Assembly: GCA_021740045.1 (NCBI GenBank)
Contig: JAIPAP010000029.1
Span: 1-39,549, forward strand
Direction of reading: 5' to 3'
DNA: 39,549 nucleotides
Source of the DNA: Bacteroidales bacterium
GTDB taxonomy: Bacteria; Bacteroidota; Bacteroidia; Bacteroidales; JAIPAP01
A program made the position numbers and the translations under genes. The notes beneath the pieces are model-generated. The model was not told the origin of the DNA, searched no databases, and saw only the letters and a program-made list of their open reading frames with translations. This document shows, piece after piece, positions 473 to 35,904 of the stretch. Position 1 is the first letter of the stretch. Each line of letters starts with the position of its first letter.

Positions 473-488
473 TGTTTCACGTGAAACA
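473..488. promoter_or_regulatory. parS: parS centromere site (ParB binding), perfect consensus
   Basis: TGTTTCACGTGAAACA is a perfect 16-bp palindrome identical to the widely conserved chromosomal parS consensus bound by ParB/Spo0J. It lies in the 28-bp gap between the ybeY stop and the mnmG start. By simple base counting a perfect match is expected about 1e-5 times in a window this size. Chromosomal parS sites usually cluster near the replication origin, and mnmG/gidA is often origin-proximal, so both signals agree. No parA or parB is in the window. Confidence 0.9.
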
Positions 489-489
489 T

Positions 490-909
490 CTATTTCCTTA
501 ATCCTAAATACAGATTTTCGCGTTCGGTCATTAACGCTTTTTCTGCTTCCGATGTATCACCGTAGCCTATCAAATGTAAAATACCATGAACTATTATCCG
601 ATCCATCTCATCCTTCATTTTCACCACGTATCTCCTGGCATTTTCCTCAACCCTGTCGACACTAATGAAAACATCGCCATAAATTTCACCAGGCTCATCA
701 TTGTAGTAAAAACTTATGACATCGGTATAATAATTCCTGTTTAAATGGTCTTTGTTTATATCTAATAAATAGTCATCACTACAAAACACGAAATTGACTT
801 CATTTATTTCACTTCCTTCCTCGTTGGCCACCAAAGTAATCCAATTTGAACAGTCTTTCTCATTTATGGTAGGTTTCCTGTTTATATAGTGAAATTGAAT
901 ATTACTCAT
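490..909 (-). CDS. ybeY: Endoribonuclease YbeY (rRNA maturation factor)
   Basis: This is a 139-residue YbeY, a metal-dependent single-strand endoribonuclease acting in 16S rRNA 3' maturation and ribosome quality control. The zinc motif is near residues 109-117: two His in HGILH are present as in the family, but the third position of the HGxLHLxGYDH motif is Asp (GYGD). From memory, Bacteroidota YbeY proteins commonly have this Asp, so I do not read it as inactivation. The upstream segment NRNYYTDVISFYYND matches the family's (T)DVLSFP-like core. Its start overlaps the end of the DUF4175 gene by 8 bp, suggesting translational coupling, and mnmG follows. Confidence 0.93.
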   Translation of the reverse strand: MSNIQFHYINRKPTINEKDCSNWITLVANEEGSEINEVNFVFCSDDYLLDINKDHLNRNYYTDVISFYYNDEPGEIYGDVFISVDRVEENARRYVVKMKDEMDRIIVHGILHLIGYGDTSEAEKALMTERENLYLGLRK

Positions 910-3900
910 TCCGATTGTCTTTGCCGTTGAAATTGTAAAAATAAGTGTTCACTTTACTTTTGTAAAAGGCCTTGAGTTTAGGCGGAACGGTTCGGAGCAT
1001 TTCTGTTTCATTGCGTTGCTCTGCTTCAAATTGCTTTAATTCAGGAGGTGTTGATATCTCATATTCCTCTGCTTCCACCGATTTCCTTCTTTTTTCTTTC
1101 TCTCTTTGTCGTTCGGCCTTTTCTGATTTCAATAACCTGGTTAATATTTCCTTCTGACGTTTAAGGGTTTCATTAGTAATCATGCGATTGACCAAGTCTG
1201 TTTCTGTTTCCTCCATATCTTTAATGGCTTTATCCATATTCCCACCATATCCTTTGCCTTCTTCCTTAAGTTGCTCTTTATATTTTTCCATCATCCGGCG
1301 AATTTGTTCTTGCTGGGCAGACATTTTGGCCAGTTGTTTGCTCATGTTTTGACCACCCGGCGACTTTCCCTTTTTTAATCCTTCCTTCATCTGCTGCATC
1401 TGTTGATTCAATTGCTGCTGCATCTGACGGATTGATTTCATTGATGGCTTACCCATTCCGGGTGTTGGACAACTTTGGTTTCCCTGTCCCTGACTCATCA
1501 TCGACATTTGTTGTTGCATTCTATTCATCATCTCACTCATGAAAAGTGCCAGCTTGTTTAATGATGACATTACGTATTGTTGCTTGCTTCTTGCAGTGCT
1601 TACTCGTCGATTTTGTAGGGCATCCAGAACTTTATCATAATCACGCTCAATATTGGAAATTTGTTTATTTATAAATGGCTCTATCATCACCTGCCGTTTA
1701 CTCAGTGCATATAAAGAGTCTTTCACTTTGGCAAGCTCATCACTTATTTCATTTTGTTTATCAATGATATCGAGGTATTTGGGATCGTTACTAGATGTTG
1801 ATTTTAATTTATCAATAAGGTTCTCCTGATCAAACGAGAGCTGAACAATATTTTCGAGCTGCTGCCTTAAATTTCGCATGTCTTCTGTCATACCTTGCAT
1901 CATCATGGATTGTTGCATGGACGACATCATCTGCTGCATTTGTTCCATCATCTCAGCGGCATTTTGCTGCGATTGTTCAGCATTCTCCATATTTCCCTCT
2001 TGCAGCTCCTGAGAACTGTTCCGCATCTCCTGATCTATGGCCTCTTCTTTATTCTTATCCCGTTTAAAATTGTTTGGATATTGTAAATCATCGTTCATTT
2101 TCTCCAGCTCCTCAAGATCCTTCTGATAATCTCCAAACTCCTTATTTAAGCTATCCTGGGCTGATCTTAATGAATCCTTTTCCGATTTACCTTCCTCTGT
2201 CTTCTTTTTAAGTTCTTTTTGTTTTTTGGCCAGCTCTTTTAAATCCTTGATACTCTCTTCGAGTTTCTTTTCAAATTCAAATTGTTTAAATAACTCCAGG
2301 TTCCTATCCAGTTGCTTCTCCAATTCTTCATTATCAAACTTTAATTCATCCATTTTCTCCTGCATCTGATCTTTATTCAAACTATCGATCATCCGCTGAA
2401 GCTCCTTCATTTTTTCCTTCATCTCTTCATCAAGAACTTTATCGAACAACTCCTCCAGTTGTCTTTGCTTTTCCATTATCCTTTGTTCTTGCTCATTGAA
2501 GCGAGATTCCTTTTTAAACTTTTCCTTGTTCAATTCAGAAAGTTCCTTCAGTTTTTGGCTTAAATTTTCCCGTTTATTCAGCAGGTCTTTTATGTTCTTT
2601 TTATCTTCCCAGTTCAGCTCTTCTTTATTGATTAATTTCTCCCGAATATCATCAATTTCCTTATTCAGGTTTTCAACGTCTTTAATGGTTTTCTCCAAAT
2701 CCGATTCGATCTTTTCCCGTTGTTTTTCGCTTTCCCGTTCTATCTCTTTTTCGGTTGGTGCGCGATAACTCAAAATGGGTGTTTTGGCCGATTTATACCC
2801 ATTTACCTGATCATTATCCCATACTTTGAAGAAGTATTCCAGGGTTTCTCCGGGCTTTAGTTCCACGCTTTTTAAATCGATGAAATGGAAAAATTGTTCT
2901 TTTACGGATGCTCCCCCAAGTTTAATATCCGTGCTACTGTATTTCTTTTCGTCCTCTTTTTTACGAAAAAATTTCAGATCAGTAAAGCCGTAATCGTCTT
3001 CTATAAACCCATCAAAATAAAGCCTCCTGTTCTGTGTGGAATCTCTATATTCCTTTACTTCAATTTGGGGATAATTATCTTTAACAATGCTTATCGAATA
3101 TACCAGCGAGTCTTTGCTTTCGAGGTATTGATTCTTGCTTTTTACTACATAAGAGGTGTTTGATCCCAATGTTCGCTTTACCGAAAACTTATTTGAGCCT
3201 TTTGAGCTAATACGTGAGGCATCCTTACCAGCCCTGAAAAATATGGTTTCGGTGTCGCGGGTAAAGAAATTCCAGGTAGCTTTGGTTCCTTCAGGAACAA
3301 TCATATCCCCTTTGTTCTCGATAGTTTCATCCTTACGCCCGGTATATTTTGGATAATCGAGCTGTATATTAAAACTTAAAATAGTTGGCTTGGGGAGCAC
3401 CCTAACTTTATAGGTTTTTGATTCATATTGATGATTACGAATCCGGAACGTGATATCCTTTTGAACGTTTTTTATCTTGTGTGAATAGCTTCCCGGCTTA
3501 TGATTATTCATTCTGAATTTACCATCCCTTGTCTCCACATAAAGATCTTTAGGGATTTCCTCACCATCTGCTTCAACTTCTATGACAAAATCTTCCTGTT
3601 GAATAACTTCAAGATTAGTATTCTTGAGTTTAATTTCATACGGTAAGGGCTTTTCGAAATGCTCATTATATTTGATTAAGCGCTTAGTAGGTTCGGTAAC
3701 GCTTGTGGGTGATGCAAGAATCATGATACCAAGAATGCTCATGGGCACTACCAGGTATTTAATATACTTTTTGTTAGCTTTGAAATTAATTGCATTCGTA
3801 AAGGGAACAGGGCGCAATTCTTCAGTACGTTGATTTATGCTCGCTATTAACAGGGCCGAACGGTCCGATCTGCTCAGCTCTTTTAATTGCAAGGTGTTTA

Positions 3901-4228
3901 ACAGGTGGTCTTTAACATCAGGGAAATGTTCTCCAATGATACGTGAAGCCTGCTCGTGATTGATGTGTTTCCCTATTTTTAAAAACCCGGCAATTGGGAT
4001 AAAAATATAGTTGGTTAATATGATAAAGCTTAGGCCAATAAAAACAAAAAACATCACGGTGCGTATTTCTGACGCAAAATAACCAAAGTATTCGCTTATT
4101 GTTAATAACACAAAAGCCAATACCAGCAATGCCCCAGAAAGTATCGAACCTTTGATCAACTGGTTTTTGTAATACTTACGTATGAATTGGTCTAGCTTAT
4201 GGAGTAATATGTCTGTTCGATCTGTCAT
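902..4228 (-). CDS. DUF4175 family membrane-anchored coiled-coil protein
   Basis: This is a very large (1108 aa) protein of the Bacteroidota-specific DUF4175 type, of unknown function. Hydrophobic helices lie near residues 26-46, 56-80 and 158-174, followed by a beta-rich extracytoplasmic stretch to about 490. Then comes a very long, highly charged coiled coil that becomes Met/Gln-rich (about 780-1000, with many MQQQM-like runs). The C-terminus is Glu/Arg-rich and ends in a short Tyr/Phe-rich tail. The topology suggests an inner-membrane anchored protein with a long rod in the periplasm or cytoplasm (inference). It overlaps ybeY by 8 bp and sits upstream of mnmG, a neighbourhood I recognise from related genomes. 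The start is the ATG at 4228. Confidence 0.85.
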   Translation of the reverse strand: MTDRTDILLHKLDQFIRKYYKNQLIKGSILSGALLVLAFVLLTISEYFGYFASEIRTVMFFVFIGLSFIILTNYIFIPIAGFLKIGKHINHEQASRIIGEHFPDVKDHLLNTLQLKELSRSDRSALLIASINQRTEELRPVPFTNAINFKANKKYIKYLVVPMSILGIMILASPTSVTEPTKRLIKYNEHFEKPLPYEIKLKNTNLEVIQQEDFVIEVEADGEEIPKDLYVETRDGKFRMNNHKPGSYSHKIKNVQKDITFRIRNHQYESKTYKVRVLPKPTILSFNIQLDYPKYTGRKDETIENKGDMIVPEGTKATWNFFTRDTETIFFRAGKDASRISSKGSNKFSVKRTLGSNTSYVVKSKNQYLESKDSLVYSISIVKDNYPQIEVKEYRDSTQNRRLYFDGFIEDDYGFTDLKFFRKKEDEKKYSSTDIKLGGASVKEQFFHFIDLKSVELKPGETLEYFFKVWDNDQVNGYKSAKTPILSYRAPTEKEIERESEKQREKIESDLEKTIKDVENLNKEIDDIREKLINKEELNWEDKKNIKDLLNKRENLSQKLKELSELNKEKFKKESRFNEQEQRIMEKQRQLEELFDKVLDEEMKEKMKELQRMIDSLNKDQMQEKMDELKFDNEELEKQLDRNLELFKQFEFEKKLEESIKDLKELAKKQKELKKKTEEGKSEKDSLRSAQDSLNKEFGDYQKDLEELEKMNDDLQYPNNFKRDKNKEEAIDQEMRNSSQELQEGNMENAEQSQQNAAEMMEQMQQMMSSMQQSMMMQGMTEDMRNLRQQLENIVQLSFDQENLIDKLKSTSSNDPKYLDIIDKQNEISDELAKVKDSLYALSKRQVMIEPFINKQISNIERDYDKVLDALQNRRVSTARSKQQYVMSSLNKLALFMSEMMNRMQQQMSMMSQGQGNQSCPTPGMGKPSMKSIRQMQQQLNQQMQQMKEGLKKGKSPGGQNMSKQLAKMSAQQEQIRRMMEKYKEQLKEEGKGYGGNMDKAIKDMEETETDLVNRMITNETLKRQKEILTRLLKSEKAERQREKEKRRKSVEAEEYEISTPPELKQFEAEQRNETEMLRTVPPKLKAFYKSKVNTYFYNFNGKDNRNE

Positions 4229-4255: not shown

Positions 4256-4283
4256 ATAACATGTAACTTATTACATATGTTAT
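4256..4283. other. Inverted repeat between the cyclase and DUF4175 genes
   Basis: ATAACAT plus GTAA at 4256-4266 pairs with TTAC and ATGTTAT at 4271-4283, with a 2-nt bulge (AT) and a 4-nt loop. It fills much of the 54-bp gap between the cyclase stop and the DUF4175 start. It has no T-run, so it is not a classic terminator. It could be an operator or an RNA stem between the two genes. Confidence 0.4.
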
Positions 4284-6310
4284 TAACGATGAAATTCGCG
4301 TTCTCCTATAATTTGCCGGCATCGATTTATATATACATTAATCACTTTATCATCAGGATTTTGTTCATTAATATCCCTAAATATTTTCAGGGCTTCCTTG
4401 AATTTTTTCCCCTTATACAGGTCCATCGCCTTTGAATAAAGTTCTTTAGTACTTTTTTTCTTTTCAATCATCTCAGGACTATCGCCGTCATAGATTTCAA
4501 AGATGTATACCTCCTGTTTTTTACCTTTAACTTTGGTAACATCCAGAAAACGATAGTTATACTTAGCAGGATCCTTAATCTTTATTAACGTATCTTCACT
4601 AATAATTATTGATGTTCCATATACTTTGGTTAAACCTTCCAGCCTGGAGCTTAGATTAACGGCATCGGAAATCACCGTTCCATCCATCCTGCCTTTGCCG
4701 CCTACGACTCCAAGCATCAAATTACCGGTGTGAATTCCAATACCACTGTCGATAGCATCGTTACCATCGCGTTTACGTTCTTCATTAAATTTTACAAGTG
4801 TTTTACGCATCTCTATCCCAGCGTCTATAGCATCTTCCGGATTCTCACTAAATAAAGCCATAATCGAATCACCTATAAACTTATCGATAAACCCCTTGTT
4901 ACGTGATATGACCGGTTCCATATATCCCAGATAGCGGTTTATAAAGTTAAAGTTTTCCCTGGGCGTCATTTCTTCCGATATCTCGGTAAAATTTCTGATA
5001 TCGGTAAACAGTACGGTCATTTCTTTTTGCACCTGGTCGCCAAGGTCGATTTGTTCAACTGAATCCTTTCCCAGGTATTCAAGGAACTGCCGTGGCACAA
5101 ACCGGTAATAGGCCTCATTCATCCGGGATATCTTATCAATATATTCCCTGATCTGAGTGGTCATTTTATTGTAACCTTCACTCAGGTTGCCAATTTCGTC
5201 ATTGGTCCTCACAATAGCATAATTATTCATTTTTCCCGCGCCGGTTTGTTTCATGTGAAACATTAGCTCCCTAACCGGATTAACAATATCGGCGGTAGTC
5301 CAGCGAACAAAAAACAGGATGTATATCAACGAGATAACAATACCACTGATGATCCCGAAGAACATGAGTAGATTATCAAAAGCATTTACATAATACAATG
5401 AATCGATGTTGACATCGCCTTCATCGGATATAACCTTAATCATCTTGTAATATTCACCTAACAACACTTGTTTTTGAGGATCCTCTACCGTATCGAGCGT
5501 GCTAACAGGCGTTAAACTGATTAAAAGATACACGGTTACAATTAAAAGTGGTAACAGAGTGGTCATGGCACTTGAGATCCATAACCGGTTTTTAATAAAT
5601 CCCCGGCTATACCCGAATATTCTTTGGCGTAGTTCCATCGGATCAAAAATATTTTCAATGTAACGGATATGTACCAGGTGCTTTTGCCAGAAATAAACGA
5701 AAAGTATTACCAGCAATGAAGCAACAAGCGATATGTAGAAATAATATTCAAACAGCTTTTTTTCAATTTCATCAGTAAAGGATTGGTCCTGCAAAATAGC
5801 ATCAATCATAAAAAAGTGCATGATCGAAAATGTTATCAGTAATATTCCTGCATTAAGAAGCGGTGTGTGTAAGAGAGTTTTACGTGTATATTTATTTATC
5901 CATTCCGGAATTCGCTTGTTCTTTCTTAGTCGCTTAAACCTGATTTTAAACGGTACGTTAACCAGAAATCCCAGGAAGAAGGTTAACAGTATAACAAACC
6001 TGATCATCAATAGTATGGTGCGGTTGAATGGATTTACCTCCACCCTTGTTCCGGTCTCCCCGGTTTTATCATTATAGTTGTCCTGTATATCAACAAAGTT
6101 ACCTTCATCGGCTGCTGCGTTGGTTGTGTCCTTTGGGACTGTGTTCTTTTGTCTTTCTATACTAATAAATCTATCACCGCGTGTTTCTATAATTTTGGGT
6201 GACATCTTTAATACCAAAAAAATTACAATTGGAAGTACCATCATAACATAAAGCACTAAGGCCAATGAAAATATTCTAAAGGTTCGGTATTTAGGTGTAT
6301 ATTTCTTCAT
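4283..6310 (-). CDS. Membrane class III adenylate cyclase with HAMP domain
   Basis: A 675-residue membrane nucleotide cyclase, expected to make cAMP from ATP. About six hydrophobic segments (near 10-35, 97-118, 149-170, 186-207, 245-268, 312-336) precede a HAMP linker (about 340-393) and a class III catalytic domain (about 425-605). Metal-binding Asp are D437 (FTDIRNFT) and D481 (FIGDSIMALF); the transition-state pair is N552 and R556 (AVNLSSRLEG). The base-selecting positions read K477 and T545, the Lys/Thr pair seen in bacterial adenylate rather than guanylate cyclases. A short TPR-like tail (about 620-665) ends the protein. It is divergent from gltX. Bases 5247-5262, coding MFHMKQ in the HAMP region, form a near-perfect parS. 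No cAMP receptor is visible here. Confidence 0.9.
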   Translation of the reverse strand: MKKYTPKYRTFRIFSLALVLYVMMVLPIVIFLVLKMSPKIIETRGDRFISIERQKNTVPKDTTNAAADEGNFVDIQDNYNDKTGETGTRVEVNPFNRTILLMIRFVILLTFFLGFLVNVPFKIRFKRLRKNKRIPEWINKYTRKTLLHTPLLNAGILLITFSIMHFFMIDAILQDQSFTDEIEKKLFEYYFYISLVASLLVILFVYFWQKHLVHIRYIENIFDPMELRQRIFGYSRGFIKNRLWISSAMTTLLPLLIVTVYLLISLTPVSTLDTVEDPQKQVLLGEYYKMIKVISDEGDVNIDSLYYVNAFDNLLMFFGIISGIVISLIYILFFVRWTTADIVNPVRELMFHMKQTGAGKMNNYAIVRTNDEIGNLSEGYNKMTTQIREYIDKISRMNEAYYRFVPRQFLEYLGKDSVEQIDLGDQVQKEMTVLFTDIRNFTEISEEMTPRENFNFINRYLGYMEPVISRNKGFIDKFIGDSIMALFSENPEDAIDAGIEMRKTLVKFNEERKRDGNDAIDSGIGIHTGNLMLGVVGGKGRMDGTVISDAVNLSSRLEGLTKVYGTSIIISEDTLIKIKDPAKYNYRFLDVTKVKGKKQEVYIFEIYDGDSPEMIEKKKSTKELYSKAMDLYKGKKFKEALKIFRDINEQNPDDKVINVYINRCRQIIGEREFHR
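5247..5262. promoter_or_regulatory. parS: parS-like site inside the cyclase gene (15 of 16)
   Basis: TGTTTCATGTGAAACA differs from the parS consensus at one central base (C to T). It lies 4.8 kb from the perfect site at 473-488 and is within coding sequence, specifying M350-Q355 of the cyclase. ParB sites inside genes are well known. Expected chance hits with at most one mismatch are about 5e-4 per window, so a second hit here is unlikely to be accidental. Confidence 0.7.
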
Positions 6311-8164: not shown

Positions 8165-8237
8165 TTGCCCGACCAGGGTTCGAACCTGGACTCTTCTGAT
8201 CCAGAATCAGACGTGTTGCCAATTACACCATCGGGCA
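8165..8237 (-). tRNA. tRNA-Gln (CUG anticodon)
   Basis: On the minus strand the acceptor stem TGCCCGA pairs with TCGGGCA. The D arm reads GTGTAATTGGCAAC, the anticodon stem is TCTGA/TCAGA and the loop is TTCTGGA, giving anticodon CTG. The T arm is CCAGG TTCGAAC CCTGG. The discriminator is A and no CCA is encoded. It reads the Gln codon CAG. It lies downstream of, and on the same strand as, glnS, whose product should charge it. Confidence 0.95.
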
Positions 8238-10555: not shown

Positions 10556-10626
10556 GGTCTCGTGGCCGAGTGGCTAGGCAGGGGTCTGCAAAACCTCCGA
10601 CGGCGGTTCGAGTCCGCCCGAGACCT
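10556..10626 (+). tRNA. tRNA-Cys (GCA anticodon)
   Basis: Acceptor stem GGTCTCG pairs with CGAGACC. The anticodon stem is GGGGT/ACCTC around loop CTGCAAA, giving anticodon GCA. The T arm is GGCGG TTCGAGT CCGCC. The discriminator is T (U73), as expected for tRNA-Cys. No CCA is encoded. It has its own promoter and terminator, so it is a single-gene unit. Confidence 0.95.
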
Positions 10627-13469: not shown

Positions 13470-14315
13470 TTAATCAACTACTTCCATCTTGATCATAATA
13501 TCTTCTTTCGGTCTATCCATACGATCGGTTTCAACCGTTGCTATTGAGTCGATCACATTCAGGCCTTCAACCACCTGCCCAAAAACCGTATAATTTCCAT
13601 CGAGATGGGGAGCACCGCCAACATTTTTGTAGGCTTTGCGCTGCTCTTCGGTAAATGTGAATTTTCCTTTCTCCTGAAGACGCTTCTCCAGTACGGGCTC
13701 AATTGAGTCAACGAGTGATTGAAACGCTTCGCGGTTTTGATTTTGACGATATTTTTGTAAGCGTTGCTGGATATGCTGATTACCCTCATTTTGGATCATA
13801 TCCATAAAAAGTTGCTGCTTTTTTTTCAGGTTCATCTGCTCTTCAACCTTATTCAACTCTTCATCGGTATACGTTTTACCATCCACGATGTAGAACTGCG
13901 ATCCTGATGATTTCTTTTCAGGATTCATCTGATCACCCTGACGGGCAGCAGCTATAGCACCTTTTTTGTGGAATAAACCTTCTTTGAGTTCAGCTTCAAG
14001 CTTATACCCTGGGCCACCTTCACCAAGTTGCTGACCTGGAGCAGCACCCTTTGAATCAGGATCGCCACCCTGTATCATGAACCCGTCAATAACGCGGTGA
14101 AATAACGTACTGTCGTAATAACCTTCCTTTGCCAGTTTTACAAAATTTTCGCTATGCTTTGGGGTTTCATCATGCAACTTTACGATCATATTACCATAAT
14201 CGGTTTTGATCTTCACTTTTTTCGATTCACCATTAGTGCTGCCCTGTTGTTTGCAACCTGCAACTGCAACAGTCATAATAGCAACCAATACGATTGTTTT
14301 AACTCTGAATAACAT
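13470..14315 (-). CDS. Cyclophilin-type peptidyl-prolyl isomerase lipoprotein with large insert
   Basis: A 281-residue exported cyclophilin that probably speeds proline isomerisation of envelope proteins. MLFRVKTIVLVAIMTVAVAG precedes Cys21 of a lipobox, so it is membrane-anchored. The cyclophilin core spans about 34-145 and 234-280: catalytic FHRVIDGFMIQGGD (72-85), SGSQFYIV (137-144) and HLDGNYTVFGQVVEG. About 88 residues between (146-233) form an extra Lys/Gln-rich helical block, absent from the E. coli enzymes, though I recall related Bacteroidota cyclophilins carrying similar inserts. It is followed 25 bp later by pheS. Confidence 0.92.
   Translation of the reverse strand: MLFRVKTIVLVAIMTVAVAGCKQQGSTNGESKKVKIKTDYGNMIVKLHDETPKHSENFVKLAKEGYYDSTLFHRVIDGFMIQGGDPDSKGAAPGQQLGEGGPGYKLEAELKEGLFHKKGAIAAARQGDQMNPEKKSSGSQFYIVDGKTYTDEELNKVEEQMNLKKKQQLFMDMIQNEGNQHIQQRLQKYRQNQNREAFQSLVDSIEPVLEKRLQEKGKFTFTEEQRKAYKNVGGAPHLDGNYTVFGQVVEGLNVIDSIATVETDRMDRPKEDIMIKMEVVD

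Positions 14316-35831: not shown

Positions 35832-35904
<73 letters not shown>

Follow-up and report, generated by a model that had tools for sequence, protein, structure and literature searches.

In addition to its part in chromosome segregation, ParB usually has a second job, the loading of the SMC-ScpAB condensin at parS. The consensus of chromosomal parS sites is a 16-bp palindrome, TGTTTCACGTGAAACA (from Livny et al. 2007, cited in the available passages of PMC10197239). The proteins that read parS and those that read the NBS sites of the nucleoid occlusion system (ParB and Noc, respectively) are separated by specific residues, R173 and G201 in parS readers versus Q173 and R201 in NBS readers (PMC7383237). 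Within the Bacteroidetes, two gut members that lack known condensins have been studied by Hi-C; there, parS clusters were used to place the origin, which did not always coincide with dnaA (available passages of PMC10197239).

The window analyzed here, a whole contig of 39,549 bp (C27) from a Bacteroidales genome (3.9 Mb in 161 contigs, 97% complete), carries an exact copy of TGTTTCACGTGAAACA at positions 473 to 488. This palindrome has no strand of its own and occupies most of the 28-bp gap (positions 462 to 489) between two minus-strand genes. One is mnmG (gidA; positions 1 to 461), of which the contig end leaves the 5' part with its ATG at 459 to 461; the other is ybeY, encoding the rRNA maturation RNase (positions 490 to 909, stop codon at 490 to 492), the upstream neighbor of the site. 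The sequence-only reading had described an exact match in this gap with a chance expectation of about 1e-5, and both statements hold, the latter as arithmetic for 16 fixed bases in 39.5 kb with uniform base frequencies. A second, parS-like site with one mismatch, TGTTTCATGTGAAACA, is found at positions 5247 to 5262, inside the coding sequence of a HAMP-like and adenylate/guanylate cyclase domain protein (positions 4283 to 6310, minus strand) encoded two genes upstream of ybeY; the CATGTG variants seen in it also occur at the mnmG edges of relatives. The gene directly upstream of ybeY (positions 902 to 4228) encodes a 1,108-amino-acid protein with a partial match to DUF4175. Judging from the sequence match and from the fact that the same slot is filled in relatives, the palindrome at 473 to 488 is very likely a chromosomal parS, the predicted ParB nucleation site of a ParABS segregation system.

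The genome encodes a single ParB above the family cut-off, with the ParB_N, HTH_ParB, and ParB_C domains, and ParA is encoded directly upstream of it. The motifs GERRLKA and ENIQR, which we take to be the CTP motifs of the ParB family, are both intact, and the nearest solved structures are those of ParB/Spo0J proteins. This ParB shares its fold with Noc, and the NCBIfam Noc model gives it 239.5 bits, short of the cut-off of 315. It carries Arg and Gly at positions 173 and 201 (its own residues R163 and G191), not the Gln and Arg of the NBS readers, while the DNA site is parS rather than NBS (PMC7383237). Position 179 is Phe and position 184 a permissive Lys. The ParB gene on which the sequence-only reading depended is thus present, and its product has residues of the parS-reading type. 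Going by established ParB biology, a ParB dimer would clamp on the site, load CTP, and slide into the adjoining DNA over mnmG and ybeY, and ParA would then move the ParB-DNA complex, drawing freshly replicated origin regions apart. An effect of ParB on mnmG expression, also raised from the sequence, is possible.

A search of the whole genome with up to two mismatches returned five sites: C27:473 (no mismatch), C27:5247 and C48:1878 (one mismatch each), and C48:14108 and C2:18084 (two mismatches each). By arithmetic, ∼0.04 sites would be expected with at most one mismatch and ∼1 with at most two, so the two-mismatch sites carry no weight. All three sites with at most one mismatch, one exact and two with a single mismatch, belong to the mnmG neighborhood: they lie at the 5' edge of the gene, at its 3' edge on contig C48, and 4.8 kb upstream in the cyclase-like gene. 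An even spread over the chromosome would have spoken against a centromere, and the sites instead form the small cluster that is typical of chromosomal parS. That the palindrome is a chance match, or the binding site of another factor, could draw on the two-mismatch matches, which are near the chance level (about one expected, two seen, one of them in MltD-like LPRET coding sequence). Against it stand the exact site, the clustering of all sites with at most one mismatch, and the phylum-wide retention described below; as a whole this explanation is very improbable, and for the exact site, chance is already refuted by the comparative data.

Contig C48 begins exactly at the ATG of mnmG and contains a complete copy of the gene. 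The mnmG starts on C27 and C48 are 97.6% identical over 461 bp (11 differences), so that C48 either continues the C27 locus or represents the locus of a sister strain; the two starts probably reflect strain variation at a contig break. The one-mismatch site on C48 starts 9 bp past the end of the mnmG match. Relatives show the gene order ybeY-mnmG-methyltransferase, which supports joining C27 to C48, and we infer this join from that gene order and the mnmG identity. With the C27 site before mnmG and the C48 site after it, the gene would be bracketed by parS on both sides. A search for the contigs of relatives with YbeY as the query found none.

Linkage to mnmG was also seen across the order in a set of 41 genomes (G000 to G040), consisting of this genome and 40 relatives, each from another family, that were searched genome-wide for TGTTTCACGTGAAACA or TGTTCCACGTGGAACA with no more than one mismatch. 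Of the 55 sites obtained, 45 are located at most 600 bp from mnmG, with 39 following its stop codon and 6 preceding its start, and 32 of the 38 genomes that have mnmG carry a site near it. With a looser motif, such a site appears in 35 of 37 relatives (downstream of mnmG in 34, upstream in 9), and one of the two siteless relatives has a truncated mnmG. In G001, both mnmG and ParB are present and no site was found near mnmG; in G018, ParB is present, and the searches for mnmG and for a site were both negative. These positions bear on the proposal that parS is kept at mnmG mainly for a ParB-linked or cell cycle-linked regulation of mnmG and ybeY, with segregation as a by-product. The repeated placement of sites at the very edges of mnmG would suit such a role, as would the position of the site studied here, 12 bp ahead of the mnmG start codon, where bound ParB could matter. 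However, the predominance of sites after the mnmG stop codon in relatives is easier to reconcile with a fixed map position than with promoter control, and no promoter-like match was seen beside parS on the mnmG strand, which makes regulation improbable as the main reason for the placement.

In a wider comparison, 80 named Bacteroidota loci from Bacteroidales, Flavobacteriales, Cytophagales, Sphingobacteriales, Chitinophagales, and other groups were examined. A site with at most two mismatches lies within 400 bp of mnmG in 65 of them (before the gene only in 33, after it only in 5, and on both sides in 27), a site with at most one mismatch in 38, and an exact one in 17. Shuffled palindromes scored on the same 80 loci gave a mean of 0.12 at the two-mismatch level and 0 at the stricter levels; a single shuffled palindrome, which may lie near the real motif, scored 27 at up to two mismatches. 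Among these 80, no site lies near mnmG in the Dyadobacter loci or in the majority of those from Saprospiraceae. The Saprospiraceae/Lewinellaceae loci L038, L054, L055, L065, and L108 lack a parS-like site in the mnmG flanks examined, which suggests that parS was lost or relocated in this lineage.

In the site collection, conservation covers exactly 16 bp, with sharp ends and a nearly invariant core, and only positions 5 and 12 alternate (C/T or A/G); the collection was chosen by a motif of that form, so that only its sharp ends and the constancy of the remaining positions are informative, and these too only within the limit of one mismatch per site. The same sites can be set against the idea that the palindrome functions at the RNA level, serving as a terminator hairpin or as a processing site between ybeY and mnmG. 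RNA of the mnmG strand could indeed fold into a hairpin with an ACGU loop on a stem of 6 bp. However, its fold is no more stable than those of shuffled sequences (−4.7 kcal/mol, z = −0.17), the would-be loop is conserved, a C/A mismatch interrupts the mnmG-sense stem at 23 of 117 sites, and sites occur both upstream and downstream of mnmG. Action in RNA is therefore most unlikely.

The proposal, made from the site together with mnmG as a gene often near oriC, that this is an origin-proximal centromere region draws indirect support from relatives rather than from this genome itself. On long contigs of three relatives, sampled coarsely in bins of 5 to 10 kb and with gaps in G025, the GC-skew minimum falls ∼10 to 50 kb from parS: at ∼377 kb with parS at 423 kb in G015 (∼46 kb apart), at 284 to 288 kb with parS at 317 kb in G025 (∼30 kb apart), and at 258 to 268 kb with parS at 247 kb in G002 (10 to 20 kb apart). 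The skew of G023 was too noisy to be informative. Within the window, GC skew is negative throughout and shows no switch, so, provided that skew is a reliable guide here, the ∼39 kb on the ybeY side should not include the origin; the origin is probably located past the far end of the window or on the opposite side of the site, the arrangement seen in G002.

The locus thus resembles known chromosomal parS sites in its 16-bp palindrome, in the few, clustered copies, in the presence of ParA and a ParB with parS-reading residues, and in the origin-proximal position in relatives. It differs from the usual arrangement in that its sites are placed at the edges of mnmG, that parAB and dnaA are on other contigs (no full-length dnaA or ParB match was found on the mnmG contigs of this genome or of its relatives), and that no ScpA turned up in the genomes of the order that were searched. 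ScpA (PF02616) was detected in none of the 41 genomes of the order, nearly all of which have ParB, versus 9 of 14 controls, and no SMC protein above the cut-off was found in this genome; these searches relied on models of SMC and ScpA rather than on those of MukBEF and MksBEF. A 1,475-amino-acid frame on contig C66 with weak similarity to SMC proved to be a sensor kinase and not a MukB or SMC protein. The palindrome is accordingly not classified as an SMC-ScpAB loading site, a class that presupposes that complex, and SMC-ScpAB loading at parS is probably absent here or proceeds via another partner. That neither SMC nor ScpA was found agrees with the gut Bacteroidetes, members of the same phylum whose parS clusters were mapped by Hi-C and in which no known condensin was found; unlike the case described here, the passages of that work on gut Bacteroidetes parS describe no linkage to mnmG (available passages of PMC10197239).

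Taken by itself, the element is an ordinary chromosomal parS, and what deserves attention is the regularity of its placement at mnmG edges. It may be, although confidence in this falls slightly short of even, that in much of the Bacteroidota parS has been kept or regained on the two borders of mnmG, at a distance from parAB and dnaA and in genomes where ScpA is not found. If so, either a ParB landing platform over mnmG is strongly conserved or ParB occupancy is functionally linked to mnmG, and the ParB-parS system would either dispense with the usual condensin or rely on one not yet known. The edges of mnmG could then serve as a simple pointer to the centromere and to the origin side in Bacteroidota, including fragmented metagenome-derived genomes, and would provide a clean setting for the question, raised by the Hi-C work, of the role that ParB and parS have in bacteria in which no known condensin has been detected (available passages of PMC10197239). 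No parS-mnmG linkage was found in the literature searched, whose scope took in neither Livny et al. 2007 nor most subscription journals, and the novelty of this regularity is uncertain.

The two-mismatch sequence TCTTCCACGTGAAACA recurs in MltD-like genes, at positions 14108 to 14123 of C48 (locus L007) and in loci L076, L085, L090, L094, and L110, ∼12 kb after mnmG in this genome and ∼5 kb after it in Flavobacteriaceae. It was considered as an additional parS and rejected: here and in Flavobacteriaceae, it falls on conserved LPRET codons, for which other relatives use other codons, and CCACGTGAAAC takes its place at these codons in 8 of 17 relatives. Its recurrence may reflect codon usage or, alternatively, a weak ParB site concealed in the gene. 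The window also contains three tRNA genes, at positions 8165 to 8237 (minus strand), 10556 to 10626 (plus strand), and 35832 to 35904 (plus strand).
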